From Beroe forskalii (Eukaryota > Ctenophora > Nuda > Beroida > Beroidae), in the NCBI GenBank assembly GCA_011033025.1, contig WFMF01000252.1, forward strand, positions 62,001 through 126,000: a stretch of 64,000 nt of DNA, written 5' to 3'. This document shows positions 5,955 through 58,400 of this stretch, in pieces. The notes beneath the pieces are model-generated. The model did not search any database. It worked only from the letters and a program-made list of their open reading frames with translations, and was not told the origin of the DNA. Position numbers and translations under genes: made by a program. Every line of letters begins with the position of its first letter. The stretch's first letter is position 1.

Positions 5955-8900
5955 GGTGAGGGAGCCCTGGTAGTTCTGATACTTGAAGGTCATCTTGCAG
6001 GCTGCGTTGGTGTAGTGCAGCATTGGAGACTCCAGGATGGCATTTCCACTGGTGTAGTAGTAGTACCCAGTAGACCGCACCTGATCAAGAAGGTAGGATT
6101 AAGAAGGGTGGATCAAGGAGGGTGGATCAGTGAGGGTGGATCAAGAAGGGTGGATCAAGAAGGGTGGATCAAGGAGGGTGGATCAGTGAGGGTGGATCAA
6201 TACATCGGGGGTGGCTGGTGGAAATTCCCACGGTCTGTGGATTGAAAAATCCATCCACCGTGGATGGATTGTTGGATCTATACACCGAGGGCGTCTGGTG
6301 GATCTTCCCACGGTCTGTGGATTGAAAAATCCATCCACGGTGCGTGGATTGATCGTGTGATTTAGAGCTAAATATCATTGTTGTAACATTGTTATCGTGT
6401 CAGTGTGTACCTGCATGAAGTCTTCATCTTCTCTGTTCCACTTAAGGTTCTCCAGAGACACGTCAGTCCAACCACACATACCGTATGTGCCAAAGTCACA
6501 TTGTGCTGGGAGGGGTGTTGAGTGTTGGAGGCAGATGTTGTACTAAATCATTTCACAAACTCTAAACTTTAAACAAGAAAATTGGTTTACTTCATCAACA
6601 ACTTGTCCAGTGTCTGAATCCATTAATAAGTTTTAAATGAGAAACAAACCAACAGACGTTACACAAAACGCCCCCAACCCCAGTAATCGCCTACCCACTA
6701 CTCACCACAATGGTTCTCATCCGTCCCGGCTGGACAGTCGTTGTAGAAGTTACAGTTGAGGAAGGCAGGGATACACTTGGGATCCCTACAGCTGTGTTGC
6801 TGGTCAGTGCACAGAGGCTTCACCTGACATGCTTCACCCCAGTAAAGGTCGTCAATAGCCACATCGCCCTTGTAACCTGCCTTAGCTTTACCTGAGATCT
6901 CAACCTGGCCAGGGAGGGAGTATAAGGGCTGAGAATATAGCAAGGGAAATGTAAAAAGCGGGTATAGGGGGAAAATAGTAGATCCTATAAACTTGAATCA
7001 TCAATTTATCTTAGGTTGAAAGAGGAGTAGAGTATGCCTTTGGCAACATAGAGGTGATCATGGGACCACGACCCTGAAAGAAGACCTCAGTAAATACCAG
7101 AGCTTCTACTCTTGGTAAGCAAAGGAATCTAAGTTATCTAACCCTGAACAGACTGCGTTGTCCAATCTTCACTGTTGCTTGATCCCATAGGCTCACTGTT
7201 GCATTGTCGCCATTAACTGACCAGAGCGTCTTGCTGTTCTTCTTGCCGACAGTCCTGATGGCAACGGACAGCCCGCCGACATTTTGTCCTGGAATGGAGG
7301 AGGCTTAACAGTTAAAAGAGGGAATAGCTAGTTTAATGATAAAGGGGGCTGATTCATAGGAGGAAAGTTATAATGATACCCTAGAAACATGGCGTCTCTA
7401 AGAGCATTTCTACATTGTAAATTTCTAAATGAGTGTTTTGAATTTATTTTATAGAACACGAGTCACAACTATTCACCGTTTAAGTGGTAGTAGAAGGTGA
7501 GCATACAGTCCTTTGATTGAGTTGTCACCCAAGGACTCTCCAGCGTTGCTGTTTGGTACTTCTTGTTGTTCTGTGAATCCAGGTACATGTAGTGTCCTGC
7601 ATGGGATCAAGGGTTAGCAAAATACTTGCTGCAGTCGAAAAAACGGTCATAAATACGAGAAAAAATTGCAGGTTGATGAACAAAATATCATTCCTTGAAC
7701 CGTGGTTAAATCTCGGAACCTGCAAGTCCTTTAACTCACCGAGGTCAGATTCAGTGCTGTGGTCGGTGTCAGGTCTTGACACAAACGCTGACCCAGCGCC
7801 CTGCATGAGCCTCCAATCCAGCTTGTCAGTGTTATACTCCTGTCCGTAGTCACAGTTTCCAAACTCAAAGTCGCAATCCAGGGCCCCGTGGAGCCCGGAT
7901 CCCGCGCAGTTGAGGAACTCTATGTCGTCAATAGCGATGTCTCCATCGTAGCTGACACCCACGTATCCCACGAAGTGAACTCGGAACTGCTGTCGCGCTC
8001 CGATGGTTACTTCTGCCTGTCTCCACGTGTCGTTTTGGTCTCCTGCAAGAGAGGTAGGGGTCATACGAGCGGGATCACTGCGGAAAACCGGCGGCAGTCC
8101 GCCGGCCGCCGCGCGGCGGTGCGGCGGCAGCCCTCCGACAGGACCCGCGGCAGACCCACGGTAAGACTAGAGGCATCCCCCGACAGAAACTCGTATAGTC
8201 CCCGGCAGCCGTAGAACTGCCGGGGTGCTGCTTGGGAACTGCCGGGAGATGGCCGGGGGAGTCCTGGCTATCCCAGACAGAGCCATAACAGTCCTCCGAT
8301 AGTCCGTGGAGTACCGGAGTACGGCCAGGCTGAAGCCTTCGGACAGCCGAGGAATCCCACGGCTAAACCAGCGTCAGTATCCAGGCGGCCTAGCGACAGT
8401 CCCCCAGCAGTTCTACGAAACTGCTGGGAGACAGGAAGAAAGACCGCCAGGGTACTCCGGGAGACGACCACAAGGAACGGCCGGGGGACGGCAACCAGAC
8501 CGCCGAGTGACGGCCGGGGGACCCCGCCGCTCGGCCACAGTAGATGGGCGCTCGTATGACACTGTAGGACTGGTTAGGACACCTTATATGCCATGTTACC
8601 CAGAACTAAGTTCTGGCACAGCCAGTGTGCTCCTAGTCCTACCTTGCATGGACCAGATGGCGTCATATCCACTCCTCCACAACATGTCTGAATCGTGGGT
8701 GATTCCCAGTTCCAACTTGTCCACACTGGCTCCGTACATGTGGTACCAGAACCTCATGGTGCAGCTTGGGCTGGAGCCGTGGAAGTAGGGGCTGTTCAGG
8801 ATGGCTTTGGTGCCGGGTTGGGTGTAAGAGGCTTCCATGTACAAGTAGCCGCCCGTGCTGTTCCCGTAGGTGTGATCGATTGTAGGACCAGTGCCAGTGG

Positions 8901-11862
8901 AGTACGTTGAGCCAGAGTGTCGGGTCCAGTCGAAGTCATCTTTGAAGTCGTAGGCCTCGTTAGTCCATCTGGAAATGAGATTATCTTTAGTGAATGCAGT
9001 AAATCACTCTCGTTCCACTGTTACAAAATCACAGAAGAAACAACCCAAGCTGAATATTCTCTTAAAAAGCAGGTGCAAAAAGTAGGTGCAAATGACAGCT
9101 AACAGTAGTAAAGGTATTTCAAAAACAATCTGCAAAAAATCGCATACCCGCAGATGTTATTCTGGAAGTCGCAGTCGCCACAGTTAGCCTCATCGGAGGA
9201 GTCAGTGCAGTCTTGTCTGAAATCACAGACTCTCTTCCTGTTGATACACTGAGGAACTCCACAACTCCAGTCTGCTTCATCATTGTCACACAGCAACTCA
9301 ACTGAGGGGGATGGAGGGGTTATCTTTCGTTAAATGCAGGGATGAGGGTGTGCTAACCCTTCTCAAAATCAAGAACTTATCCCACGCCAGAATGATCACG
9401 ATAACAAGAATGAAAAGGGATTCCATCTATCGATTTCGTCGTTATCAAGTTTTCACAGATAGCACCATTTAGAGTGAATAATTCCAACAGCCGCTGTTAT
9501 GGGTTTACCTGGGCATGTAAGGAAGGATATGTCATCGATTGCAATAGATCCGTAGTCGGTGGCTCCTGAGCTGGTGGAAGCAGTGAAGAGCGGTCTGAAG
9601 AGACCCCTCTCCCCAAGCTGCAACTCCGCCTCCTGCCAGGCTCCTCCTTGGGATCCACTGATAGTCACGTGATACTCGGGGGTGTCCGAGGTGGCGTCCA
9701 GCGTACCAGCTCTGTGAGGGAGAAGTTAGCTAACAAAAGGTTTCTTGGAGGCTTGGAGGAATGAAATCGTCAAAAGCAACAGCGAAGTTCGAGCCAGTGG
9801 TCAAGAAACTCATGCGTTTGAGTTTCGCAAATCACTCCACAATGAATTGAGAATGGCAACTCACTGCAGATCTCCGATGTTCCAGCCGTTGATGTAGTAG
9901 TAGAATCTCATAGAGCAGTGCTTGCTGAGGGTCTTCATCCAGGGAAGGTAGAGGGTGGTGGGGTGGGGTTGGTGGTAGAAGTTAGCTGGTAGTGGAGTGT
10001 GCATCACCTCGTAGAAATGCCCTGAAAAATGGTGGTGGTCGTGAAATGGAGAAAAGCATAGTCTAAGACTTTAAGTAATAATTTTCAACAACTTCTGTCT
10101 TCTGAACTGTTTCCAGACTTTACTTAATAATCTTAATTCCCCCTCTCTCCCTAACCTGAAGTGTTCTGGTAGGTGTGGTCAGCCTGAGGCTTGTTACTCC
10201 ACCAGTCCCATTGCCCTTGTCCGATTACCCAGTAGGTATCATCCTCATGCTCGTATTGTGTCAGGTGAGAGAACACCTGTCCCATGTCCTCGAAGGTTAT
10301 GTCAGCTGGACCGTTATACTCTCCTTCCGAACCTGGTGAGGGATTGTGAAGGTGATTATTGGGGATGTGATGGTGATTGTTAAGGAAAGATGGTCGGCAT
10401 AGCCAAAAGGCATTCCTATTTAGAAATATTTTTGTACATTTACTTCTGGAACGCATCACACAGGAAGTAAATTGACTTCTGTAATGCCTATGTTGATTTC
10501 TGAGGATCATTTTAGAATCTGGAAAGCATTCAGTGTTCCCTTACCAATAGCACAGTTGACAAAGTTGATGTCATCAATAGCAATATCTCCCTTGTAGCCA
10601 GCTAACATGATGGCCTCTATTGCAATGAAGAAGTCTCCCTGGAGACCCACGTTTGCAACTGCCTTCTGCCACTTGTTTCCTTGATTACCGGTCTTCTTGA
10701 ATATCTGATAGGAAAGCAGGCGTAAGAAATTGGATGTTACTCATTGACATAAAATGGGCAAGAATTTAGAAAACAACGGCAATAAAGTCAACGCAAGGAA
10801 GATGATTCACGAGCAAGAATTATAATAAAGTGCACCAAAAAGTATCCTCAAGACAGGTAAAACACAAAGTTGTTTCACAAAATATGCAACACCATGAAGA
10901 ACCCTCCCCACCACCAACCTGAGTCTGGTTATTGAGCAGAACTCTGAGAGTCCCAATGTCAGTTCCCTTCATGTGGTACCAGAACTCCATCTGGCACTGG
11001 GGTCCCGAGCTGGGGAACTCCGGGGAGATGAACCTGGCCCTGTCTCCCTTGCCCTGGGTGGACGCCTCCACGTAGATGTAGTGTCCGGTGGCGTCCTGTT
11101 TGGTGTGGTCCGAGGCAGGTCCGGTGTAGGAGGATGAGGTGGAGCCGGCGTGCCGGACCCACTCGAAGTGTCCAGTGGGGTCCTCCCGCCAACCACATAT
11201 GTTCTTCTCGAAGTCACATGTGCCGCAGAGCGCCTAATTTAGAGGAGCAATCAATCTTAAAATTTAGATACAGAGATGCTGTAATGAAAAAGCAGTGTCT
11301 CCAACAAGAAATTAAATTTTTAAAGATAATTCAGGTACATCTTGAGATCAAAAACTTTAAGATCCATTCCCATTCCGTCATGCGATCATTACCTCGTCGG
11401 ACTTGTCCTTGCAGTCGTCGTAGAAGTTACATTTGTACTTTAGGGGCACACACTCAGGGGTGTTACAGGTGAACTGGTCAGCAGAGCAGTAGGGTGTCAC
11501 TGAGAAAGAAGGAAGGGTGAGTAAGGAATTTAGATTGATTCATTTTGAGGCAATTCAACTTAAGAACAGCTTCAAAGAGGTTCATTTGTAGACAGTTTAA
11601 GTCGAAGGCAAGTGTTTAATCTTCCAGGCAACTTCAGTTCAATGTAACAGTAGAAATAAGACAGAAATATTCCCAACACCCCCGAATACCATCATGCACA
11701 CAAGAGCCCACGTACCATCACCACACTTCTCAAAGTGGATGTCGTCAATAGCCACATCACCGTCGTAACCGTCTCCCCTGACGCCCTCAAAGAGAACTCT
11801 GAACTTGGGGGTTATGCCCGCTAGAGACACTGTCTGAGCTTTCCACACGTCCGTTGTCGTTC
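5955..11862 (-). CDS. MAM/LDLa domain block, duplicate copy A (15 exons, 5' end missing)
   Basis: Exons from 5' to 3' are 11716-11862, 11393-11499, 10919-11233, 10545-10704, 10156-10332, 9865-10021, 9509-9711, 9148-9301, 8643-8968, 7740-8042, 7477-7596, 7143-7288, 6706-6904, 6411-6505 and 5955-6080. In order they encode the last third of a MAM (VAIDDIHFEKC), an LDLa, two MAMs, an LDLa, two MAMs, an LDLa, and a MAM lacking its last third. MAM signatures are CDFE-type starts, WYHMKG or YYHLNG centres and GDIAIDDI-x-F ends. LDLa repeats carry six cysteines and the acidic SDE calcium site. There is no signal-peptide exon, so this copy is probably an orphaned 3' part of a MALRD1-like gene. The last exon ends with a GTGAGT donor, but no further exon is recognisable; read-through stops three codons later. 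Confidence 0.7.
6095..6352. repeat. Intronic minisatellite and 85-bp tandem duplication
   Basis: At 6095-6205 a 14-16 bp unit built on GGTGGATCA repeats about eight times. It is followed by two diverged copies of a segment containing CCCACGGTCTGTGGATTG and the palindromic TGGATTGAAAAATCCATCCA. The homologous intron in copy B (17974-18154) has only two or three short units and one copy of the larger segment, so the expansion is specific to copy A. Confidence 0.65.
8060..8560. mobile_element. GC-rich 501-bp element with terminal inverted repeats (copy A)
   Basis: The element begins GTCATACGAGCG and ends with its exact reverse complement CGCTCGTATGAC. The similarity extends imperfectly inward (ACTGCGG against CTACTGTGG). 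The interior is very GC-rich compared with the AT-rich introns around it and is full of short CTGCCGGG and CGGCCGGGGG motifs. It holds no convincing protein. It occupies an intron of the MAM block, and the same element sits at the same place in copy B, so it inserted before the duplication. A non-autonomous DNA transposon (MITE-like) is the likeliest explanation; no clear target duplication is visible. Confidence 0.6.
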
Positions 11863-17514: not shown

Positions 17515-17765
17515 TGAAACTTAAAGAAGAAAGCAGAAAAACAAAATCAAAAAAAGTAAAAAAGAGTAAAATACAAAAATACAAAAAAGATACATAACCC
17601 CTTTTGAATATTTTGACCCGGGAATCCTTGTTTTATTTGTTCAGTTGCTGGTTGATGTCGACGAGAATTCGAATTTCAAGAAAATTAATTATTCTATGGA
17701 GAAACTTAATGGGGACAAAATAAGGTTATCTCTACAGCATCGGGATTAACCAAGATAAGCAGGCT
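17515..17765. repeat. Copy 3 of the convergent-gene tail repeat, start of duplication unit B
   Basis: Homologous to 5595-5850 and 1425-1600. It contains TTTTGACCCGGGAATCC and GTTTTATTTGTT (AATAAA on the minus strand). It sits between the coiled-coil remnant and MAM block B exactly as copy 2 sits in unit A, and marks the proximal end of unit B. Confidence 0.6.
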
Positions 17766-20700
17766 AAAACTTGCGGGTATTAACTAGTGAGATATGGGAT
17801 AAAAAGAAATTTGCAGGATGAGAAAAACTTATTATTCCTGTACTCATGGTGAGGGAGCCCTGGTAGTTCTGGTACTTGAAGGTCATCTGGCAGGCTGCGT
17901 TAGTGTAGTGCAGCATGGGCGACTCCAGGATGGCATTTCCACTGGTGTAGTAGTAGTACCCAGTAGATCGCACCTGATCGAGAAGGGTGGATGAAGAAGG
18001 GTGTATCAGTGAGGTTGGATCTATACACCGAGGGCGGCTGGTGGAAATTCCCACGGTCTGTGGATTGAAAAATCCATCCACGGTGCGTGGATTGATCGTG
18101 CGATTTAGAGCTAAATATAATTGTTGTAACATTGTAATCAGTGTCGGTGTGTACCTGCATAAAGTCTTCATCTTCTCTGTTCCACTTCAGGTTTTCCAGA
18201 GACACGTCAGTCCATCCACACATGCCGTACGTGCCAAAGTCACATTGAGCTGGGAGGGTTATCGAGTTTTAAAGGGAGATGTTGTACTGAATCATTTTAC
18301 CAACTCTAAACTTTAAACAAGAAAATTGGTTGATTTAATTAACAACTTGTCCAGTTTCTGAATCCATTAAATAAGTTTTGAATGAGAAACAAACTAACGG
18401 ACGTTACACAAAACGCCCATATCCCCACTAACCACACCTTCTTCCACCACTGAATGCTGAATACCCACGTCCCACACCCCTCTTATCGCCTCCCACCACT
18501 CACCACAATGGTTCTCATCCGTCCCAGCCGGACAATCGTCGTAGAAGTTACAGTTGAGGAAGGCAGGGATACACTTGGGATCCCTACAGCTGTGTTGCTG
18601 GTCAGTGCACAGGGGCTTCACCTGACATGCTTCACCCCAGTAGAGGTCGTCAATAGCCACATCGCCCTTGTAACCTGCCTTAGCTTTGCCAGAGATCTCA
18701 ACCTGGCCGGGGAAGGGAGTATGAGGGCTGAGATTGAATGGGGAAATGAAACTTAGGAGTAGTAGATCCTATAAGCTTAAATCATCGGTTCATTCAAGCT
18801 TCAGAGAGGAGTAGAATATTACTTCAACGACATAGAAGTTATCATGGGACCACGACTCTTAAAGAAGACTTCAGGTTATACTAGAGCTTCTACTCAATTG
18901 AAGGCTCGTGATGAGCAAAGGAATCTAAGTTATCTAACCCTGAACAGACTGCGTTGTCCAATCTTCACTGTTGCTTGATCCCATAGGCTCACTGTTGCAT
19001 TGTCGCCATTAACTGACCAGAGCGTCTTGCTGTTCTTCTTGCCGACAGTCCTGATTGCAACAGACAGCCCGCCAACATTTTGTCCTGGAATGGAGGAGGC
19101 TTAACAGTTTAAACACAGTCTTCTAACGAAGGAATAGTTGGTTTTATAATACAGGGGGCTGATTCATTGGATTGTTTTCATCCTGTTGGAGGAAAGTTTT
19201 AATGATACCCTAGAAACATGGCGTCTCTAAAAAGCATTTCTACGTTGTAAATTTCTAAATGTTTTAAATTTCTTTTATAGAACACGAGTCACAACTACTC
19301 ACCGTTTAAGTGGTAGTAGAAGGTGAGCATACAGTCCTTTGACTGGGTTGTTACCCAAGGACTCTCAAGCGTTGCTGTTTGGTACTTCTTGTTGTTCTGT
19401 GAATCCAGGTACATGTAGTGTCCTGCATGGGATCAAGGGTTAGCAAAATACTTGCTGCAGTCGAAAAAACGGTCATAAATACGAGAAAAAATTGCAGGTT
19501 GATGGACAAAATATCATTCCTTGAACCGTGGTTAAATCTCGGAACCTGCAAGTCCTTTAACTCACCGAGGTCAGATTCAGTGCTGTGGTCGGTGTCTGGT
19601 CTTGACACAAAGGCAGACCCAGCGCCCTGCATCAGCCTCCAATCCAGCTTGTCAGTGTTGTACTCCTGGCCGTAGTCGCAGTTCCCAAACTCAAAGTCAC
19701 AATCCAGAGCTCCGTGGAGGCCGGATCCCGCGCAGTTCAGGAACTCTATGTCGTCGATGGCGATGTCTCCATCGTAGCTGACACCCACGTAACCCACGAA
19801 GTGTACTCGGAACTGCTGTCGTGCTCCGATGGTGACTTCTGCTTGTCTCCACGTGTCGTTCTGGTCTCCTGCAAGAGAGGTAGGGGTCATACGAGCGGGA
19901 TCACGGTGGAAAACCGGCGGCAGTCCCGCGGCCGCCCCGCGGCGGTGCGGCGGCAGCCCCCCAACAGGACCCGCGGAAGACCCACGGTAAGACTAGAGGC
20001 ATCCCCGACAGGACCCCGTACAGTCCCCGGCAGCCGTAGAACTGCCGGGGTGCTGCCGCGGAACTGCCGGGAGATGGCCGGGGGAGTCCCGGCAATCCCA
20101 GACAGAGCCATAACCGTCCTCCGATAGTCCGTGGAGTACCGGAGTACGGCCAGGCTGGAGCCTTCGGACGGCCGGGGAGTCCCACGGCTGAACCAGCGTC
20201 AGTATCCCGGCAGTCTAGCGACAGCCCCCCAGCAGTTCTACGAAACTGCTGGGGGACAGGCAGAAAGACCGCCAGGGTACTCCGGGAGACGACCACAAGG
20301 AACGGCCGGCGGACGGCAGCCAGACCGCCGAGTGACGGCCGAGGGAGCACCGCCGCTCGGCCACAGTAGATATGCGCTCGTATAACACTGTAGGACTGGT
20401 TAGGACACCTTATATGCTATGTTACCCAGAACTAAGTTCTGGCACAGCCAGTGTGCTCCTAGTCCTACCTTGCATGGACCAGATGGCGTCATATCCGCTC
20501 CTCCACAACATGTCGGAATCGTGGGTGATTCCCAGCTCTAACTTGTCCACACTGGCTCCGTACATGTGGTACCAGAACCTCATGGTGCAGCTTGGGCTGG
20601 AGCCGTGGAAGTAGGGGCTGTTCAGGATGGCTTTGGTGCCGGGCTGTGTGTACGAGGCTTCCATGTACAGGTAGCCGCCCGTGCTGTTCCCGTAGGTGTG

Positions 20701-23700
20701 ATCGATTGTAGGACCAGTGCCAGTGGAGTACGTTGAGCCAGAGTGTCGGGTCCAGTCGAAGTCATCTTTGAAGTCGTAGGCCTCGTTAGTCCATCTGAAA
20801 TGAGATTATGTTAAGTGAATGACTTAAATCACTCTCGTTCCACTGTTACAAAATCACAGAAGAAACAAACCAAGCTGAATATTCCCTTAAAAAGCAGGTG
20901 CAAAAAGTAGGTGCTAATGACAGCTGATAGTAATAAAATTATCTGAAAAAGTATCTGCAAAACATCGCATACCCGCAGATGTTATTCTGGAAGTCGCAGT
21001 CGCCACAGTTAGCCTCATCGGAGGAGTCAGTGCAGTCTTGTCTGAAATCACAGACTCTCTTCCTGTTGATACACTGAGGAACTCCACAACTCCAGTCTGC
21101 TTCATCATTGTCACACAGCAACTCAACTGAGGGGGATGATGGAGGGTTATCTTTCGTTTAAGGCAGGGAGGTTTGCTAACACTTCTCAAAATCAAGAACA
21201 TCAAGAACTTATCCCGATAACAAGGATGAAAAGGAATGCCATCAATCGATTTCTTCGTTTTCAAGGTTTCACAGATAGCAGCATTTGGTGTGAATAACTC
21301 TAACAGCTGCAAAAGCTTTACCTGGGCATGTAAGGAAGGATATGTCATCGATTGCAATAGACCCGTAGTCTGTGGCTCCTGAGCTGGTGGAAGCAGTGAA
21401 GAGCGGTCTGAAGAGACCCCTCTCTCCAAGCTGCAACTCTGCCTCCTGCCAGGCTCCTCCCTGGGAACCACTGATAGTCACGTGATACTCGGGGGTGTCC
21501 GAGGTGGCGTCCAGCGTACCAGCTCTGCGAGGGAAAAGTTAGCTAGTAAATGGTTGGTTTGGGTGTTTGGAGGAATGAAATCGTGAAAAAATCAAAGAAA
21601 TTCAAGACAATGGTCTAGAAATGTTTGAGTTTCGCAAATAACTTTATCAAGAGCATGAATTGAGAATGGTCACTCACTGCAGATCTCCGATGTTCCAGCC
21701 ATTGATGTAGTAGTAGAATCTCATAGAGCAGTGCTTGCTGAGGGTCTTCATCCAGGGGAGGTAAAGAGTGGTGGGGTGGGGTTGGTGGTAGAAGTTAGCT
21801 GGTAGTGGAGTGTGCATCACCTCGTAGAAATGTCCTGAAAAATGATGGTGGTCGTGAAATGGAGAAAAGCATATAGTCTAAGACTTAAAGTAACAATTTT
21901 CAACAACTTCTGTCTTCTGAACTGTTTTTAGACTTTACTTCATTAGCCCCTCTCTCCCTAACCTGAAGTGTTCTGGTAGGTGTGGTCAGCCTGAGGCTTG
22001 TTACTCCACCAGTCCCACTGGCCCTGTCCGATCACCCAGTAGGTGTCATCCTCATGCTCGTATTGGGTCAGGTGGGAGAACACCTGTCTCATGTCCTCGA
22101 AGGTTATGTCAGCTGGTCCGTTATACTCCCCTTCCGAACCTGGCGGGGGGTTAGAAGGTGATTATTGGGGATGTGATGGTCGAAATAGCCAATTGACAAG
22201 TCTATTTAGAAATATTTTTGTACATTTACTTCTGGAACGCAACACACAGGATGTAAACTGACTTCTGTAATGCCTATGTTGACTTCTGAGGATCACTCTA
22301 CAATCTGGAAAGCATTCAGGGCTCCCGAACCAATAGCACAGTTGACAAAGTTGATGTCATCAATGGCAATGTCTCCCTTGTAACCAGCCAACATGATGGC
22401 CTCTATGGCAATGAAGAAGTCTCCCTGAAGCCCAACGTTTGCAACTGCCTTCTGCCACTTGTTTCCTTGATTACCGGTCTTCTTGAATATCTGATGGGAA
22501 AGGAGGCGTAAGAAATTGGATGTTACTCATTGAAATAAAATGGGCAAGAAGTTAGAAAACAACGGCAATAAAGCCAATGCAAGAAATATGAGTCATGAGC
22601 AAGAATTAAGAGCGCAAAAGACATCCTCAAGATAGGAAGAACACAAAGTTGTTATACAAAACATGTAACACCATGAAGAACCCTCCCCACAACCAACCTG
22701 AGTCTGGTTATTGAGCAGAACTCTGAGAGTCCCAATGTCAGTTCCCTTCATGTGATACCAGAACTCCATCTGGCACTGAGGTCCCGAGCTGGGGAACTCC
22801 GGGGAGATGAACCGGGCCCTGTCTCCCTTGCCCTGGGTGGACGCCTCCACGTAGATGTAGTGTCCGGTGGCGTCCTGTTTGGTGTGGTCCGAGGCAGGTC
22901 CGGTGTAGGAGGAGGAGGTGGAGCCGGCGTGCCGGACCCACTCGAAGTGTCCAGTGGGGTCCTCCCGCCAACCACATATGTTCTTCTCGAAGTCACATGT
23001 GCCGCAGAGCGCCTGTGTAGTGGAGCAATCAGTCAGAGATCTTAGAGGAGCAATCAGTCAGAGATCTTTGAGGAGCAATCAGTCAGAGATCTTAGAGGAG
23101 CAATCAGTCAGGGATCTTAGTCAGAGATCTTAGAGCAATCAGTCAGAGATCTTAGAGGAGCAATCAGTCAGAGATCTTAGAGGAGCAATCAGTCAGAGAT
23201 CTTAGAGGAGCAATCAGTCAGGGATCTTAGAGGAGCAATCAGTCAGAGATCTTAGAGGAGCAATCAGTCAGGGATCTTAGAGGAGCAATCAGGATCAGAG
23301 TCAGTCAGAGATCTTAGGGGAGCAACCAGTCAGAGATCTTAGAGGAGCAATCAGTCAGAGATCTTAGAGGAGCAATCAGTCAGGGATCTTAGAGGAGCAA
23401 TCAGTCAGGGATCTTAGAGGAGCAATCAGTCAGAGATCTTAGAGGAGCAATCAGTCAGAGATCTTAAAGGAGCAATCAGTCAGAGATCTTAGTGGAGCAA
23501 TCAGTCAGGGATCTTAGAGGAGCAATCAGTCAGAGATCTTAGAGGAGCAATCAGTCAGGGATCTTAGAGGAGCAATCAGTCAGGGATCTTAGAGGAGCAA
23601 TCAGTCAGAGATCTTAGAGGAGCAATCAGTCAAAGATCTTAGAGGAGCAATCAGTCAGAGATCTTAGAGGAGCAATCAGTCAGGGATCTTAGAGGAGCAA

Positions 23701-46400: not shown

Positions 46401-49400
46401 TCCCAGTGGAGGTGTACTTGGGAAAGAAGACATCGTGACCAGAGGCTGTCATGTCGTCGGAGAGGAGCCGGGTTCTAGGTATCAGCATGGCAGGAACAGG
46501 TGTGATGTCGGGTTGTCTGGGGGAGATAGGAGGAGGGGTGGGCAGGTTCTTGCTTCTGGTGGAGGGTGGGTTGGAGGAGCCACAGGAGCATGGAGTGTTT
46601 GCTAAGTCATCACCAGGAGTGAAGAGGGCAGGAGGTGCTGGGCTTCTGAAGCTCTGTTCTTGTAGAGTACAGGAGCAGGGGGCTGGTGACACCTTGTTGT
46701 GTCGCAGGAAGGGGAATCCACAGAGAATAAACTTTGCTGTCATGCTGTGTAGAGCGTACTATTGATACTGTTACTGATTGTAGAGTAGATATGAAGTTGA
46801 ATGTCGGTGTTGAGTGGAAGGGGTTTAAATACTGTGAGACTGGTAGTGGTGTCAGGGGTATCGTGTCTCAGTCCTTGTTAACAAGGTGGGAGGACAGGGG
46901 TCGAATAGCGGTAGTGGTGTCAGCAACAGGAGACAACACACCCATGCGAACCATCAGCTACTCCAATCACATGGATCACGTGATACAGGAATGAGATCGG
47001 AATGTAACATACAACAATTTATAGTTATTTCGCAGTGGTTGATCAACCAATCAACCAATTGAGTAATTGAGATGTCAGACCAATCAAAGATGCATCAACA
47101 AGGGAATTTAAAACATGCTGTCAACACTCAACACGTTATTCCCATGGGATTTTAACTAAATTGATAATTTAAAACTGCCACTGTTAAATTAATTACAACT
47201 ATGATGAATGTGACAGGATGTGAGGACACCCTTACAAGGTGCTCAATGATCATTGGCCACAATCTGAGTTACAAATGAAAATTTAAAACACGTTAAACTG
47301 ACCGTGTATTTGTATAGTTTAGTCCGTTGAGCACACATGATAGTAGCGTTGCTGTAAGTCCTGTAGTCTCCCAGTCTAGAGGGGAAGGCTCGGGCTGAGG
47401 GCACCTCCGTGTAGCAACCGATGTTAACAGCGTGGTTTTCTGGAAGAGGGGTTAGGATGAAATGGGTGGGCCACCCTGTTGTTGTAAATCTCTGGATTGT
47501 CGAAAAAACAAAATAGTTCAATAAATCCCAAGACACAAAGACGCGAGATACAACCTTGAACCCAAAACCCCCAGCTAACGTCATTAACGACCCCTTGTCA
47601 CACTAACCACAGTCGTTTTCGTCGCTTCCGTCCCAGCAATCGTCCGTCAGATCGCACACTAGATCCTGATCAATGCACCGCTTGTTAGCACAGGTGAACT
47701 CCTTGGCGTTGCAGACCGCTAACTCCTCGTCACCACAGTTACGGAATGACACGTCATCCACTGCCAGGTCACTCAGGAAGGAGCCACCAATCACACCTGG
47801 GGAAGGGGAGATGGTGAGGGGAGGGGAGGGGACGAGGGTAAAATGGTGGGAGAGATAATGTAGGGATATCGCTAACAAGAAGCGGAAAAGATATTGATTG
47901 TCGGGGCAATATTTTCATTAAAAGTGAGAAAGTGGGGAGGCAATACGACAGTTTTTTTGTGTGAGAAATTCCAGGTAACAAAAAGCCAGTATTGACCTGT
48001 ATGTTGAGAAGTACTGCCCCATTTACCTCCTGCCTACGAACCTTCGATCTCGATGGAGAAGGACTTCTGAGCTCCGATGTAAGCCCCGCTCTCATACCAC
48101 ACATCTGCCCCGTGGTCGAATGACTTCTTGATCAGCAAGTTCCTGGCTCCGTTCTGTACCATGAATACTTTATGAACCTGGGAGGAGGAGACGGTAATAA
48201 ATAGAAAAATTTTAATTTTTCCATTTGCCCCCCAGCTTTTAAATTTTTGAAAAATTCCCCAAAATGAAATTCTTTAAAACACGAAAAAAAATAAAAACCG
48301 GTTCCCCGCCTAAGTGCCAAAGGGAGGGGGGCCCCATTTACTTTTGGACTTACCAACCTTTAAAGGATTTTGGGGGAAATTGCCCGTTTTTTTGTTCCCC
48401 CGGAAGAAAAGAACCCTTTTTAAAACCCCGGGGGGGAAAGCTTGGGGCACCAACCCTAAAAAAAGAGTGCTTGTGGCAGTAAGGGGGTGGGGTAATTAAA
48501 TTAACGGTAACTGTTTGTTCTTTTTTAATTTATTCCAAAACCCTTGAATTTTTTTTTAAAACCAAAGATTCGACAAAGGCTTTCTAAAACCCGAGGGAAA
48601 GAGCAAAAAAAATAACTCCCCAGTAGCTTTTCCAAAAATAGGGCGAAAGTCCGGGGCGTTGGGAAAAATTTGCTAACGAAAGTTACCTAAAACTCACTCC
48701 CTTCTCGGGGGCTCGTATAATGTTAGGATCGCCGTCAAATGTCACACGGACCCTTCCGGTCCTCGGAGACTAGTTTCAGGCCTGATACCCCTCGCTCAGC
48801 AGTACACTTCGCCGTCTAGATGCTCGCCCTCCGACAGAGCTGAGATCCTCAGGCTCCCGCTACCTTCGGCCCTCGCACTGTTAGGTCCGCGTTAATGCTC
48901 ACCCTCGGACCCTTCGGGTCCTGAGGCTCACGCTCAGGCCTTCGGCCTCGCAGAAATTATAAATTCCAAAAAGCTCGCCCTCAGGCCCTGCAAATACACG
49001 GGCTCCTGAAACCGATAGGGCTTGCCAGCCCCCTGATATAAAGGAATCGCGTGTTGAATTTAAAAGAATTGCACCTTGAAGTTGTCGTCATCAGGAAGAG
49101 GTCCGTTGTTGACAGTCCACATCACGCTAGGAGCCGGGTAACCCGGTAGTACCGCAAGTCATAGTGAAGCTGTACCCGCCCGGAATAACACCGCCCGAGG
49201 GAGGTGCCACAATCTTAGCGGCAGTTATAGGGGGAGCCTTGAAACAAACAGAATTAAAACAGTCAATACATCAAATAATAAATCATTATGAATAACGATC
49301 GCAAATAAAAAGTAAGCGTTCAGAGAAAGCGGCACAGAACAAAAAAGCTCAAACGCACATACCTTGATGTCGTCGAACATGTAAACAGAGTAGGCGTTGT

Positions 49401-52400
49401 AGCTGCCCTTGTTGCCGTTGCAGTTGTTAGCACTGCCGTCCTTGGCATAGGTGTTGAGGGCGTCCGGACCAGTGAGACACTGGCTGCCTTTGAAGACACC
49501 AAACACCTGGGAGGGAATAAGAATTGAGTGAGGTGGGGTGGGATTTCAAATGATGTGGTATTTAGTGAAATCGTCGAGACCACTGCACTGTTGGAGTGAA
49601 TATAAGTGTAGTAGAATTGTGTCTCGAAAAGGACAATGACAATTCAGAAGTCTTACCACAGTAGATATTCAAAGAAACAAACTAACCGTTGCGCCCTTCT
49701 GGAGAGCTACTTTCTCGCAGAGCGTACTAATACCGCTGGGGGTCCACGAGTACTTCTTCATTACAGTGGGGAGACCCGGGTCTGTCTTGTTGTAGGAGTA
49801 GCAGCCGATCAGCTTGGGGGACTTGTAGCTCTTGATCGAACACCCGTAGAACTGGGTTGAGTGTAAAATGCTTCACTTAAGTTGACCTAATTTAGCCTTT
49901 TTCTTTAGGTCCCCCATTGGCCTTAAAATGATACAATTTCAGATTCCTGAGATGACAAAGAAGACTGATTGCAAATCCTCAAAAATTTTGGCAACTTCTA
50001 TCTTTCTATGCAACGGGCAACCTTAAACAATTCGACTGATTCGAAAGCAATGTACTTCAATTCAATCACCCGCTAAACGTATACTCACATCAAGGGCTCC
50101 TATCTTGCCCAAGCCATCGATGTTGTACCAGAACTTCATTCGACAGGTGGGCCCAGTCACAGCGAACTTTGGTGTTTGGATGATGGCAGTGTTGGGTGCC
50201 GGGAATCCCTCCGTCTTCACATACATGTAGTGTCCTGAGGGGGAGACAAAGGTGGAGAAATGCGTGGGGAGAAAAAGTTCTGATTTGTGGCATTTTAGTC
50301 GAAGATTTGCAAGCCCAAAGGTCGGAAATTTAGAGAGTCCACTTATCAAATTTCTTGCATTAACTCATCCAGCATTTTTTGGATTCTGGGTCTTAAAGCA
50401 TTGTTGCAACGAAAGTCTTACCACATGATCCTAAAGTTGGTTGGGTTTCCATTTGGGACTTGACTGTTCCGAACTTGTTGTCAACAATGGAACCCCACTG
50501 GAATACCAGGTCTGCGCTCGGGATGGGAGCCTTGCAATCACTAGCGAACTTGAAGATGTCTGACGCAGTTAGGACTTTGCTCCACATGTAAACACCGAAC
50601 AGTTTTCCAGTGTAGGCCTGGTGTGATGCGAAACCACCACCAAGACTATCTTGTTCCTGAAAACAAGGGGTTATGATAAATGTAAACCTCAAAACACGTG
50701 GTGCTAATAGAGAATGGTTGGTCTTATAACATACCATAATGGGCCACCATTATAACGATAACTTGCATGCTTCAGTATTACTTTTCAAAATTGACAAAAT
50801 GCAACGAGTCATAGCAACTAAACTCTCGAAGTAATTTTACAAATCTGTTACAAACCTGTCCCAGAACAACAGTGCCCCCAGCATCAAACGAATACCCCTT
50901 CCTAATTCCGGGGAAGGTCTTAACCCAGGCTCCGTCCACGTATGCCATCAAGTTTCCTGTGGCACTTTCCCAGGTCAGACAGGTGTGATGCCAGCCTCCG
51001 TCGTTCAGCTTGATCTGGAGGGAAGAAGAGCCGTTAGAATGAAGAGTTCATTGCGTAGCAGGAGTGAATGACAACGTTTGTTGACGCATCCGTTACTGTT
51101 TTATGGCGAACTTAAGGCAAAGAAAATCGGACAGAAATTGCTAAACACAGATGAGTTTAGGATGGCAAGCATCTATTGGTAGAATTTAGCAATGAACTCA
51201 CTCCGGTGGATCTCCAGTAGCCCTTGACGACCACTTGGAGGTTGAAGAGCTGCCCAATGAGAAGTTCATTTGTCCTGCTGGAGGAGGTGGCCAGACTGAA
51301 GAAGTAGCCACGGCTGTACCTGTTGAAATAGAAATGGATTTTAATAGTCACTATTTATTCCTGATTTTGTGATGTCATCATAGATAATATTGAAAACTTA
51401 AATTTCCATTGATTCTTTTAAGCATGTCTGATCTCAGAACTGAAGACTAAGACAGTACCCCATTCTAGAAAGGCTGCTTCGAGTAAAAGCTCCTCAAATT
51501 CTCAAATTGCCTGTCTAGAATTGGTCTAAAGCAGTACCTGTCACTACTGGCAGCCCAGGCACACACCGTGACATCAGTCAGTTTAGGTAGTCCTGTCTTA
51601 AGGAGCGCGTAGTTGGAGACAGCGGCAGGGTAGGGGAAGTTCAGGACTTTCACATCAGGTCCTGTGAAAGGGTGAGAGTTCTAATGTGGAGTAGTGAATA
51701 TTCTAACAACAGATGAATAACAAAGTGATCAATAAACAAAGGAATGTGAGAAAGTTTGATAATGATTTATGCGAAAAGAAGCTACTCAACTCCAGCTTTT
51801 ACCCTTTTATTCCTCACACGAATATTATATTACCGGTGACGCTGTGGTCAGCAGGCATGGTGCTGTAGAACGTTTCATCTCCCAGAGAGTTCTTCTTCCA
51901 GTCGAAGTTATCATCCAGTGAGTTGGTGAAACCACACTGCCCGCTTTCAAACGAACAGGACCCTGGGGTGGGGCAATAGTAGGAATGTTTCGCTAACATG
52001 GGGTCCCCAAACATTCAAAACAGTCACCCTATAATGGGATGAATGTTTTCAATGTTCCCTTAGAAACAAAACTACCTTCCTACCTTCCTCCAGCGCCTCC
52101 ACACGAAAGTGTCTTCAAGAGAAGATTCAGTGCATTCAGATGGGTCCTAGTATAGAACTCTCCGTGTCATGGAGAGCTGCCGCCGCCTCTAGCGAAAGTG
52201 GGAGGCGTGTGCTCAGTGGATTTCCCACCACAAATGGGAAGATTCGAAGCAACCACACACGTTTTTCCTACACTTCTCGTCCTCTTCCTGATAAAGAAGA
52301 TTCTAAGCAACAACTTACCACAGACGTCCTCGTCCTCTCCTCCCGTGCAGTCCTTCTCAAAGTCGCAGACCTTGTCCAGAGACACGCAGGTGGGGTCCAG

Positions 52401-55400
52401 ACAGCTGAACTCCTTGTCAGAACCTTAATCTCAGAACACAGGGTGGGGTCCAGATACGGGGTTAATCTCAGAACACAGGGGTGTAACTGTCAGGACACAG
52501 GGGTTAATCTGAAATCTCAGAACACAGCGGCTGTACACGGGGTTAATCTCAGAACACAGCGGCGTCACTGTGGGATACACGGGGTTAATCTCAGAACACA
52601 GCGGCGTAACTGTGGGATACACGGGGTTAATCTGAAATCTCAGAACACAGCGGCGTAACTGTGGGATACACGGGGTTAATCTCAGAACACAGCGGCGTCA
52701 CTGTGGGATACACGGGGTTAATCTCAGAACACAGCGGCGTAACTGTGGGATACACGGGGTTAATCTCAGAACACAGCGGCGTCACTGTGGGATACACGGG
52801 GTTAATCTCAGAACACAGCGGTGTCACTGCGGGATACACGGGGTTAATAACATGGTTACGAGAGGCAGGAGATCTTGTTAAAAACATTCAAAAGCAATAA
52901 TTAGCACTGCTAATCATTGGGAAATAGCCAATTTCTGCTAATACCAGAATTCGTTATCAGCCCTGTTATCATACAAATTTTCTGGACTTACCTCCACAGT
53001 TGATGAGTTGGATGTCGTCCAGAGCAATATCTGAGGTGGTACCGTCCATCTTGGCTTCAAAGACCAGCTGAGAGGCTGACCCCCTTCCTATGGTTACCTC
53101 GGCAGTCTGCCACTTCTTGTCTCCTGTCGACTGAGAGCTGTTCCATACCTGCCAAGCGATGGAATTCATTAAAAGTTATGTTTTGCTAGGTCAAACATGG
53201 GGTTTCACTCCAATATATCCATTCAGAGAAATATCAGTGACACAGTCAGAGATACATACTATAGAAAAGTCTAGAATACCCTAGTCGTGCCCATGACTCA
53301 CCGCCGTTGATCCGAGAGAGTTGGAGTTGTTGAGCCAGAGCGTGCCCGGGTTGTCTCCGTAGAGGTAGTAAGCAAACCGCACAGTGCAGTCCGTGGTCAG
53401 CGTCATCCAAGGCGAGGAGATGGTGGCTGAGGCTCCGGAGGCCTTCCCAGCCGCTTCAGCGTACATGTAGCCGCCTGAGGAGAGGGTAAATGTGAGGGTA
53501 ACTGTGAGGGATTGGGAGGGGTTGTCGGAGTTACTGTGTAGGGATTGGGAGGAATATGATGGGTCAATGGTCAGTGTAATTAGTGTAATACGTAGTAGCA
53601 TGAGATGGTTGCTTTGGTTGAACTGGGGCCGGATTGGAAGAGGAGGGCCATGACCTTTGGGGCTCACAAGTTTCGTTAAGTCTAATGGATTCATCGTATC
53701 AATAACTCATTTGCTGGCCATCATCCAAGAGAAAAGAAATCTTGAAATGGTCCAGTAAGTACTAAGTACCTTGGTTAGTTTCTGTGGTGTGATCGATCAG
53801 AGGTCCGTTGTTCTCAAAGGCATCAGCTCCCTTCTGCTTCACGAAGTTGAAATCGGAGGACTTTGAGTGGATGTAGCCACACGTGCTGTCCTCGAAGTTG
53901 CAGTTGCCGATAACCGCTGAAGAGGGAAAGCATAGTCAATCAATTTAGCAATTAGTAGATAAAGAGAAAATAAAAAGGTGTATTGTTTAAATCCAGAAAC
54001 CTCCCAAAACCAGCACAACATAAAGTATGGACACCCCAAGTCAAAGATCTAACACTGAACTATTTATACTCACGGCATCCCTGTTCATCGCTGCTGTCAG
54101 GACAGTCCTGGACTCCATTGCAGACCTTGGTAGCAGACACACACATCGTGCTGGTCTTACACTCGAACTCTTTGGAGGTGCAGGCTGCCGGGGCCGTGTC
54201 GTGGCAGTGGATCATGCCAACGTCGTCTATTGCTATCCGGGAGGTTGGCGAGGTGCCAACAGTGGCCGAGATGTCCAGGGTGTAGGAGGTCTTCTGTCCG
54301 ATAAACACGTAGCCCTTACTCCACCCATGTCCCTGGTCACCTGCAGGAGAGAGGTGAGATGAGAGATCATGGGTGAGACGAAATATTCACATGGGATTCA
54401 AATATTTCCAAAGAAATGAGATTCAAAACTTTACACTATCTGTTGTAATCTTCTATCTATGTCTCAAAGAATGGTAAAAGCAATAAATCACTCCGCAAAA
54501 CGCCACAATAACCCCTCAAACAACACCTACCGACTTTGCTCCACACGACAGCCCCATCACCCAGGACACTGAGGGTTCCTATTCCCGTTCCGTACATGCT
54601 GTACCAGAAACTCATAGTACACCGGGGTGAGGTGTCAGTCATGGTGATGTACATGATAGCTGCGTACCCGGATCTCTGGCTAACGTTGGGCAGGTACGCG
54701 TACTTTCCTGGGGGAGAGAGAGAAGCTAGTATTTCACTATTTTGGGTCAAATGATTATGTAGATTTACGGAATTCCTCCACCTCCATTTTATGTTGCCTG
54801 CTACGCAGCAGCTGGTATGGTTGCCGTATATCAGCCATACCTAATATCGAGTCTCTACTGAAGAACTAACCACAATCAGGGATGTCACAGAGCTCGTATT
54901 TGAGGGAAGGGTTGGTGGTGTAACACCAAGGCCCGGCCTTGTTGTCAGGGTTTCGACAGAAGCTGTGGTCTCCCAGCCCGTAGCTTGTAGTCCGGCTGTA
55001 CCTGGAGGTGAGGGAAAGAGATTAGGGAGGTGAGGGAAAGAGATCAGGGACATGGGGAATGAGATTAGGGAGATGAGGCAATGAGATCAGGGATTGAAAT
55101 GGAAGCAGGAAGGGTTGGAAAATGAATAGAGCGATGTCAGAGAAATTTAAAAGGACTAATTCTGAAGTATTTGAGCATGTTTGTCATGCTGTTGTCCTAC
55201 TGTACCTTTGCCAGTGAGGTTTGAGAGAAGACCATCTCTGACATACCTCCCCACTTTTAGTGACACTGGTTGTACCTCTGTATGTGGTTCCTGTGGTCGA
55301 GGAAAAAGTGTAAAGTGTTAATATTGAAATTCATTCCTTCGAAGGAATCTAAATGGAAATTTTACTGAATAGAAAAACATGAAATGATCCGGGATCATTT

Positions 55401-58400
55401 CATGTTTTTCTATTCAGTAAAATTTCCATTTAGATTCCTTTCCTGTTTTTAGTTTAGTTTCAGTGATAAAGGGATCATTGATCCCTTTATCACTGAAACT
55501 AAACTAAAAACAGGAAAGCTTCGAAGTTTGAACGATCTGTCTATCACTGACACAACTTGCTCTCTCTACCCACCACTTGCAGTAGTCTTGCAGTCCTTAT
55601 CCGGGATCAGATCGCCCCCACTGGTGTGTTCGTAGGGTGGCCCTGTCTTGTAGGAGCTGTAAACATCCTTGGAATCGAAGTAGAAGTTCAGTCGGTCAGC
55701 CGTCGACTGAGTCCAGTCACAGATGTTTCCGTCGTCAAAGTTACATGCTCCCACTGTCAAGATGGAAGGGGTGTTAGAGTGTTAAAGTTATAAGATGATA
55801 CGAATATCGGAATGGCATTCTAACTGGCAAAAGAAATTGCCACCTCATATTCCCGACTCACACCCGAATATCCAACCACCTTTGGTTTTGAGTCTCTTCA
55901 GTCTCTCCGCCCCACACCACACTTACCGCAGTTGGTGGAGTTCTCATCAGTCCCATCGTAGCAATCCAAGTTCCCATCACAGACCAGGGTGTGGTCAATA
56001 CACTGCCCAGATCCGCATTGGAAGGAGGAGGACGGGCACGGGGCTGATACTGGAGATAGGAGGGAGTTAGTGGGGGCAATCATTCACATTGCAGATGCCA
56101 CAAAAACTTATTATGATATTGATTATTGAAAAAGTGGCAACTGATCGGTCCACTGTCGATAGGGAATCGTTGAGGCATATACTTGAGAAAACGTCTTCAT
56201 CAAAACGTTACCAAACAAATTCACAGCTTGTAATGTACATATTCTACCTTGGCACATGTATGAGACGATCAGTTTCTTGTTCCCTGTGCAGGGGTCTCCG
56301 AAGGGGTTGTTTCCGGCAGTCAGGGAACAGCTGTTCTTGTGACTACACTTCTTACGGACCTGGGAGGGAGGGAAACGGAGTCAATCAATTGCCAGATAAC
56401 TAAAACATCTGAATTCCAAAACTATCGAAAAACGCGTATAAGAAAAAGAACCAAAGACCTGCAAAAGCAGTGTAATACGAACTTATGGATTGAGGATCTT
56501 CAACAGATCTGCACTTACAATGTCCATGGTCTCTGGAGCATCACAACTGGGTTGTATGCCGTAGGTGGCACTCTCAATCAGAAGGATCATGCCCTGAGGG
56601 CACTGCAGGTTGATGGTGCTGTTGGTGCAGCCGGCAGTGGCCCCGGGGTTCTGACATGCTGTCTGGGAGAGGGTTCCTGAGCAGGCTGCTACAGAGAAGG
56701 ACTTGCTGAGACCTCCGTAACTGCGGGAGAAGAGTGAGTGAGTGGAGAAAAGATGTGAGATAAGTACTGGATAGAACACGAAATCAGTTCAACAGTTCAT
56801 TTTAAATTTTAAAAGTGATACACCTCATATTTTGGTAAATTATCAGGGACGTCGGAGCACTCTTTTCAATATTTCGGGGCTATAAATAAGATTCCTTACT
56901 CGGCGCTGGAGATTCCGTTCTGCTTGCTGCCCCTGAAGCCGGAGGCTCCCCCAGCAATGGTGACGTAAGCACAGCCCCCGTCCAGTGAGGTCACTCCGGC
57001 GTGTACTGCAGCCAGACACACGGAGGAGCGTGCAGCGTACGAACCACTCCCGTACACCGAAGCTGGGGTGGAAGTTGAGTTAGTAGGTAGAATATGAGAA
57101 TACGAATAATATGAAGAATATGAAGATAGCTGGGATCTTAATATGATTGATTTTATCATTGACAATCGACAGATCAAACTTGTTCCACGGACCACCAGTG
57201 GTTGGCTTTTTATGTCGAGGAAAGCACTTGTTATCCAGTGAGATAATTTCTATTCCTGTCATTGGCTGTTTCAGCTGTTGGAATAGAAGTAAAACCATCT
57301 AAATAAAAAATGGCTTGGGTCCAATTACCTGATTTCTTCTTGCAGGCCGGGCAGGTAAGCATGTACGTGTTCCCGATGACATAGAAGGTGTTGTCCACGT
57401 TAGTAGTACACTCGAGTCCCTGCACCTTGGTCTTGACACTGAGTTCGCAGAAGTTGAGGATCCTGGGGTTTCCAGGCAGGTAGACAGTCACAAACCGACC
57501 TGCGGGGTTGGGAATATCAATAAGTGATAAATGCCATTCAGTAGTCCGGAGTAATCGGGAAGTGAGAAATGCTATTCGGGAATATGGGATATTGGGAAGT
57601 GGAGAAATTATAGCAGTTAGAAATGTTCAACTGGACGAAAGATCGGAGATTAGAAAGTTTCCAATCTCCGATCTTCAGTTCCAATGGAAATGAAGTGCTG
57701 TGGCACTTGCCCGATTCAATTTTTGGATTCAACTTTCCATTACCTTTCTTGTTGCAGTCGATATTGAGTGATTTCTGTCCGGTAGCGAAGTTGAACTTCT
57801 TGTTCCCACAAGCAGGGTTAGCAGAAGGGGAACTCTCGTCATCCGTGTCTCCCACATGGATCTCAAATGGGTTTATCCTGGAGCTCCCACTGTCCATCCT
57901 GTGATGGATTAAAAGTACAAAACATGAACAATTCCCGATTGAACCATGAGGAAGGCATCTAATAGCTCAATAGAAGCAAATTAATGAATGTTCACAATCT
58001 GGGTGCGATGGGGTGCGTCTGACGACCAGTCGTTGACCCAATCGTAAGAACAAAACATCGAATAATTCACATATCAATACATCCGATGAAAGCAAATTAA
58101 TGAAAGTGACATTCTATCACCCTGCTAACTTTTACCTGTTGACGAGTGTGATCTTATCGACCTGGGATGTCCTGCCCAAGTCTACCCTAAGCCAAGGATC
58201 TGTCTCCTTGGTGGCACTGTGATAGCAACTACCTCGGTAATAGTTTGTGTTCTCGTTACCGTCCAGAACTCTGTCACAGGTAGCTTTGTTCAGCACTGAC
58301 TTAGAGCTGCACGTAGCCCCCATCGATATGTCTGTAGGGGGAATGTTGTGAGTGACTGAATGGGTGTCGGGTAAGAGTTTGAGTAGTAATGAAATATTTG

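Follow-up and report, generated by a model that had tools for sequence, protein, structure and literature searches.

MALRD-like proteins are built from arrays of MAM and LDLa modules, and in this they resemble the gene region described here from the ctenophore Beroe forskalii. Mouse Diet1 carries nine MAM and nine LDLa copies in the excerpted account of PMC8804323. In a homology search, the Trichoplax sp. H2 protein P0030 aligned over 99% of the query region at 26% identity. The MAM relatives listed contain mostly MAM and LDLa modules alone in Pfam, with TIL or VWF-type modules in a few; among those listed (in one search, 120 of the 179 matching proteins), none combines a MAM with a kringle, pentaxin or ricin domain, whereas kringle, pentaxin and ricin-type modules are all present here.

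Nested (discontinuous) domains are arrangements in which a guest occupies a host's surface loop and both host halves make one fold. Titles and opening lines of abstracts yielded no report of a MAM as the host domain, and no insert-split MAM turned up in 50 relatives with about 600 MAM matches between them. The kringle-in-MAM homology search gave three matches; in the best of them, P0147, the kringle profile matches 14 times and MAM is absent from the matches. In comparison with nested domains in general, one host loop here holds three unrelated guests within one gene region and at one phase-1 intron. The best PDB sequence match of the pentraxin is neuronal pentraxin-1 (6ype, E 1.4e-25), and the nested kringle scores 76.7 bits against the first plasminogen kringle of 4a5t. 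Unlike the known pentraxins (neuronal pentraxins, SAP and CRP) and the plasminogen/HGF-type kringles, both modules are embedded in a MAM.

Exon anatomy and nesting at MAM1 and MAM3

The window, the whole stretch of DNA that was analysed, comprises 64,000 nucleotides (contig WFMF01000252.1, positions 62,001 to 126,000). The exons between 55753 and 50089 have AG acceptors and GT donors on the minus strand, and their translation is free of stops. The features, in the direction of reading, are as follows.

55927–56049, minus strand: LDLa module upstream of MAM1 (Pfam, 46.2 bits)
55574–55753, minus strand: MAM1 first half, kringle linker and first Cys in a single exon
55206–55290, minus strand: kringle exon 2
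54871–55001, minus strand: kringle exon 3 (...CDIPDCG), exit phase 1
54531–54707, minus strand: MAM1 second part (GKYAY...)
54074–54340, minus strand: MAM1 end and LDLa
53770–53916, minus strand: MAM2 first part, without an insert downstream
53302–53474, minus strand: MAM2 second part
52992–53148, minus strand: MAM2 end
52319–52423, minus strand: LDLa in the interval between MAM2 and MAM3 (Pfam, 31.1 bits)
51834–51962, minus strand: MAM3 first half (...ADHSVT), donor phase 1
51538–51661, minus strand: pentraxin exon 1
51202–51319, minus strand: pentraxin exon 2
50856–51014, minus strand: pentraxin exon 3
50422–50656, minus strand: pentraxin exon 4 (EQDSLGGGF...), exit phase 1
50089–50234, minus strand: MAM3 second part (GHYMY...)
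49687–49851, minus strand: WSC-like exon 1, phase 0, within MAM3; tentatively a further nested insert
49363–49506, minus strand: WSC-like exon 2, phase 0
49075–49237, minus strand: Ig-like exon, frameshifted (broken or misassembled)
48042–48177, minus strand: MAM3 third part
47608–47796, minus strand: MAM3 end and LDLa

Profile matches support the nesting on both the host and the guest side. The kringle in MAM1 scores 80.4 bits (PF00051, profile positions 3–79 of 79), and the pentraxin in MAM3 scores 100.7 bits (PF00354, 1–169 of 194). Joining the host halves raises the MAM match (PF00629) from 70.2 bits in the interrupted form to 83.9 bits for MAM1 (1–152 of 158), and from 62.7 to 82.5 bits for MAM3 (1–157 of 158). 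The Pfam cut-offs are 26.4 bits for MAM, 34.3 for kringle, 25 for pentaxin, 29 for ricin-type trefoil and 27.8 for WSC. The preliminary description had placed a kringle between the halves of MAM1 and a pentraxin between those of MAM3, and Pfam, splice sites and open frames all bear this out. It had also described MAM2 as free of an insert, which holds (MAM2 scores 104.2 bits, 1–156), and the pentraxin cassette as phase 1 at both borders, which the sequence confirms. The kringle was said to fall cleanly between the same exons; its exit is indeed a clean phase-1 junction, but at its entry the MAM1 exon continues past HTSGG for 14 residues (letters not shown), to 55574, and encodes the kringle linker and first Cys. 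At the level of sequence the nesting is real and wider than first noted, and the MAM halves would form one folded domain around the guest.

MAM3 is broken a second time by a 1.9-kb phase-0 gap (50089 to 48177) containing two in-frame WSC-like exons and the frameshifted Ig-like exon. Both remain below Pfam thresholds: the WSC-like exons together score 23.8 bits for PF01822 against the cut-off of 27.8, and the Ig-like exon, with X at the frameshift, scores 20.2 and 20.6 bits. Apart from repeats, a genome search for copies of the locus returned the locus itself alone, and the next-best genome match of the pentraxin is 31% identical.

Further hosts at the same junction

The suggestion that one site takes unrelated whole domains gains support from three more hosts elsewhere in the genome: one with two kringles and one with a ricin-type trefoil lectin on C306, and one with a kringle on C847. 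In the C847 host (~77.5 kb), the exon ending at 77699 encodes an LDLa, the MAM start and the first half of the kringle, and the following exon (77441–77148) encodes the second half of the kringle and the MAM continuation, with no intron separating kringle end from MAM. This kringle scores 91.9 bits (1–79) and the joined MAM 54.3 bits (1–157), the MAM start by itself being a weak match (12.9 bits). Its intron lies at another position than the introns of the MAM1 kringle. The kringle-pair host on C306 (18–19 kb) has its MAM start at 19045–18917 and its continuation at 17683–17537; the first kringle (62.0 bits) is shortened mid-domain and the second (67.8 bits) spans 1–79, and the join is assumed because a GT donor is absent at the expected place in the first kringle. 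In the paralogous ricin-type host (12 kb; MAM start 12489–12367, continuation 11583–11371), which has a frameshift close to the MAM start, the nested beta-trefoil scores 45.7 bits (PF00652, 4–126 of 126); the fold is of a sugar-binding type, and no enzyme part was seen.

Profile searches found 53 MAM chains on C306 and 14 on C847, with LDLa matches among them. Of these 67, 35 are split at the junction (MAM3 placed in this class by hand), 22 read as continuous and 10 are unclassed; five of the 35 are hosts, with three unrelated folds as guests. The host survey covered C306 and C847, 3 of 93 MAM matches lying on C200 and C536. Among 32 examined cases, some of them copies from segmental duplication, 29 have a phase-1 intron at the junction and two a phase-0 intron, with one undecided. 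If inserts were spread evenly over the ~107 detected intra-MAM junctions, finding all five at one junction would have P ~0.004, and at least five of six, with the WSC counted, P ~0.016; both values are rough and use counts entered by hand. Long gaps at the junction were inspected as well. Tandem-repeat-like frames were seen by eye in that at C306 23284, five ORFs in those at C847 89673, 75195 and 74141 gave no Pfam match, and those at C306 40873 and C847 101419 were viewed through coding-like segments alone. A tree of 57 MAMs needs four changes for the five hosts (mean of 4.9 when shuffled; 58 of 500 shuffles equally low), with 33 of its 53 inner branches open; it is poorly resolved and may be compatible with a single origin of the hosts.

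Nested modules and rival readings

We estimate a probability of about 0.82 that this is part of a giant gene for a MAM/LDLa extracellular protein in which the MAM jellyroll acts as host for whole domains at one loop. Most split MAMs of the array share a phase-1 intron in the loop between the DHT motif and the strand GxYxY, and phase-1-bordered modules (kringle, pentraxin and ricin-type trefoil) would have entered that loop, probably by exon shuffling, in at least three separate events, because three unrelated folds are present there. The loop would then tolerate an insert in the folded protein, and transcripts would contain it. In an unlikely alternative, the inserts are cassettes included in some transcripts only, so that plain and domain-bearing MAMs are both made. 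Skipping the pentraxin exons would keep the reading frame and leave donor and acceptor unchanged, and earlier donors that would give an insert-free MAM occur in the MAM1 exon (CCA|GTGGGG, weaker) and in the ricin-host exon (GGG|GTAAGT, good). Against such a switch, each half of the C847 kringle is encoded in one exon together with part of the MAM, at both ends, so that clean splicing-out at the exon borders found is impossible.

It is far less probable that the MAM protein lacks the kringle and pentraxin, these being genes of their own within its introns or dead remnants. The broken Ig exon close by and the frameshift in the ricin-host MAM would suit decay, but the open frames of pentraxin and kringle are intact, guest phases fit the host at both borders, and the kringle start and MAM1 lie in one exon. 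In addition, the frame of pentraxin exon 1, followed back to the preceding stop, reads NSHPFT without a Met. Least credible of all is that nothing is nested and the modules lie in tandem, a MAM start between the halves having been missed; we found no supporting point for this. The introns from kringle to second MAM1 half (54870–54708) and from pentraxin to second MAM3 half (50421–50235) are 163 and 187 nt, too short to hold two introns and, between them, a MAM start exon of ~130 nt; the profile search found no MAM start in them, and C847 has no intron at all between kringle end and MAM continuation. The extra MAM start that the preliminary description had raised as an objection is thus contradicted.

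Mosaic extracellular proteins are usually explained as end-to-end strings of modules assembled through phase-1 exon shuffling. In this gene, modules seem to have entered another module's interior on several occasions, at one structurally definable loop. The series of 35 split MAMs, five with guests of three fold classes, offers a natural test of when domain interiors accept guests.

Predicted calcium site and putative ligand binding

The junction is predicted to sit between two calcium ligands of the MAM. These ligands in NRP1 are E651, D685, N691 and D796 in the excerpted text of PMC5104691, and in an alignment to the neuropilin-1 MAM the junction falls inside DHTGDGNF, D685 to F692 by counting. 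It maps by alignment to the loop preceding the first jellyroll strand of the solved MAM. Since the guest lies between two predicted ligands, a calcium ion may serve as a clamp at its base. Against such a clamp, four of the five hosts have N or S at the E651-equivalent position; MAM1 has Glu in place of the DHT Asp, and in C847 that position is unclear. Each guest would form a ligand-binding branch that sticks out sideways from a linear stalk of MAM and LDLa modules, possibly with a role in recognition or adhesion. Because whole domains are encoded inside MAMs, the protein may have branches instead of being a linear string of beads, suggesting a branched receptor in a ctenophore, a lineage that holds a key place in the early evolution of animals. 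As a tentative extension, the MAM calcium loop, with its phase-1 intron, could be a standing port at which a ctenophore lineage repeatedly plugs ligand-binding domains (kringle, pentraxin, trefoil lectin and perhaps others) into a giant stalk, partly swapped by cassette splicing, to give branched recognition receptors with calcium-anchored side arms. The pentraxin keeps the GQEQD stretch, whereas the residue after GGGF is Ala here, Glu in SAP-like 3flp and Asp in neuronal pentraxin-1; its calcium-dependent ligand binding is putative, with EQD kept and one acidic position lost.

Guest domains at one junction of the MAM fold

Twenty-one exons, all flanked by acceptor AG and donor GT dinucleotides, were placed on the minus strand from 56049 to 47608, and with a frameshifted Ig-like exon excluded their translation is stop-free with or without the WSC-like exons. 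Three successive MAM domains of this gene (MAM1–MAM3) are compared here at the junction, the intron place between the DHT/HTSGG-type motif and the GxYxY strand.

Exons at and around the junction in MAM1 and MAM3 (window positions)
55753-55574, minus: MAM1 start and kringle start; does not stop at HTSGG but goes on to [14 protein letters not shown]
55290-55206 and 55001-54871, minus: further kringle exons in MAM1, exit via a phase-1 junction
54707-54531, minus: MAM1 continuation, entered from the kringle at the phase-1 junction
51962-51834, minus: MAM3 start, phase-1 donor at its end
after 51834, minus: pentraxin in MAM3, four exons, the last with a phase-1 donor
from 50234, minus: MAM3 continuation, after the last pentraxin exon

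The preliminary description, made from the sequence alone, had ended the MAM1 exon at HTSGG; exon 55753-55574 instead extends into the start of the kringle. Its other readings of these exons held: the phase-1 donors of the MAM3 start and of the last pentraxin exon place the cassette in phase 1 on both sides, and MAM2, said to lack an insert, has a plain intron of 295 nt at this place. The profile searches it proposed for the spliced product matched both guests in Pfam (kringle, 80.4 bits; pentaxin, 100.7 bits), and the joined halves of each host match as a single MAM domain, scoring 83.9 bits in MAM1 compared with 70.2 with the insert, and 82.5 compared with 62.7 in MAM3.

Inspection of the long gaps in other MAMs of the array, on the window's contig (C306) and a second contig (C847), revealed three additional hosts at the same junction.

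Further hosts (contig positions)
C306 19045-17537: two kringles between the MAM start and its continuation
C306 12489-11371: ricin-type trefoil between the MAM start and its continuation
C847, exon ending 77699: MAM start and first kringle half
C847 77441-77148: second kringle half and MAM continuation

In the kringle pair, the first copy (62.0 bits) is shortened in its middle and the second is complete (67.8 bits), while the C847 kringle has a single intron, within the kringle itself. Guests occupy 5 of the 35 MAMs split at the junction, MAM3 having been assigned to this class by hand; 22 others were read as continuous and 10 were unclassed. Phase at the junction was 1 in 29 of 32 cases, some of them copies made by segmental duplication, with two in phase 0 and one unresolved.

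The next MAM3 intron contains WSC-like exons (within 49851-49363), in frame and in phase 0, that score below the Pfam cut-off and would be a possible sixth insert, at a different junction. Elsewhere in the genome (C160, C202 and C167), kringle and ricin-type lectin matches lie near each other in open frames whose reported lengths are identical.

Position in the fold and comparison with relatives

The calcium ligands in the neuropilin-1 MAM structure are E651, D685, N691 and D796, and loops differ among MAMs (PMC5104691). Alignment of MAM3 with the neuropilin-1 chain sets ADHSVTGHY opposite QDHTGDGNF, and counting back from N691 and F692 equates the DHT Asp with D685, which puts the insertion point between two predicted calcium ligands, directly ahead of the first jellyroll strand. 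Three of the five hosts retain this Asp, whereas MAM1 has Glu and C847 is not clear. D796, by similar counting the first Asp of AVDD, is present in all four hosts for which the C-terminal portion was read, and four of five have N or S at the position of E651.

MALRD-type MAM/LDLa proteins were found from placozoan to vertebrates in three protein searches, which covered proteins of 0.55–1.75 times the query length sharing exact words with the query. In relatives, a simple motif located the insertion loop in 499 of 538 full MAMs examined; the loop has 0–9 residues in 443 of these and never more than 43, and the longer counts are probably overruns of the motif. According to precomputed Pfam assignments, kringle, pentaxin or ricin domains accompany MAM in none of the matches listed (28; 120 of 179; 3). 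Of the 146 proteins in the first two listings, all scanned, 50 contained MAM, and none of their 600 domains is split by an insert of at least 40 residues. At a lowered threshold, the MAM profile search on relatives that had been proposed gave 606 matches, none split by at least 30 residues, and the same profile did reveal the split in all five of our own hosts. No report of domains nested in MAM was found among the titles and abstract openings listed from an open, partial library.

Proposed origin and possible decay

We think that the array encodes an extracellular receptor or matrix protein, in which MAM units would form the stalk and guest modules would have been shuffled, in a few units, into the phase-1 intron of the MAM calcium loop. 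With three unrelated folds as guests, insertion or replacement would have happened no fewer than three times, independent of the outcome of the host tree, which is weak and requires four changes. Later intron loss or shift could have left the kringle start sharing an exon with MAM1 and the C847 guest borders without introns. The two ends lie close together in kringle, pentraxin and trefoil folds, which would suit the choice of guests, because the Ig and LDLa modules located by eye occur between MAMs rather than within them, with the exception of the broken Ig exon in MAM3 (49237-49075). Since these kinds of guests often bind ligands, they may serve as recognition modules that the array holds out sideways.

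Other splicing is compatible with the gene structures: the pentraxin cassette can be skipped in frame, and earlier donors are present in MAM1 and in the ricin host. Parts of the array may also be decaying or misassembled, because the ricin host and the Ig-like exon are frameshifted and the shortened kringle of the C306 pair lacks a GT donor.

The surrounding array and assembly

The assembly is eukaryotic and measures 216 Mb, and the window (C306:62001-126000) carries a large MAM/LDLa array on its minus strand. Ninety of the 93 genome-wide MAM matches fall on C306 and C847, where chaining gives 53 and 14 MAM domains, respectively. C306 5529-8822 and C847 102103-105521 are 89–94% identical; this shared sequence may mean that the two contigs adjoin or are allelic at a single locus, or it may be a duplication. 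Within the window, 6673-11253 and 18471-23031 (C306:68673-73253 and 80471-85031) form a segmental duplication, about 11.8 kb apart and 91% identical, that copies MAM/LDLa units. Upstream of MAM1, at about 57075-56228 and likewise on the minus strand, lie matches to LCCL (58.1 bits) and to a SUEL-type lectin domain (45.3 bits). Cysteine-rich units at 59871-59527 and 43678-43214 (C306:121871-121527 and 105678-105214) look alike by eye, and the pieces sent gave no Pfam match.

The intron after the first MAM1 exon contains two adjoining perfect palindromes (55342-55440 and 55438-55518; arms of 49 and 40 nt, 1 nt spacer, 100% complementary), which could represent a fold-back element or result from misassembly. 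A dispersed repeat of about 106 bp (about 52129-52234) has 28 further genome places listed, and a 42 bp tandem repeat (9.3 copies, 52456-52848) lies in the intron that precedes the LDLa exon at 52423. In the segment 48001-48500, 154 of 500 bases belong to homopolymer runs of at least four, an unusually high share that possibly reflects poor consensus.

The mitochondrial contig (C1134; 13,339 bases) yielded no tRNA genes in a search not designed for mitochondrial tRNAs, its COX1 requires TGA to be read as Trp, and its proteins appear highly divergent by eye. Ctenophore mitochondrial genomes are described as fast evolving and tRNA-less (PMC6991124); the contig is thus ctenophore-like, and a ctenophore is the likely source.
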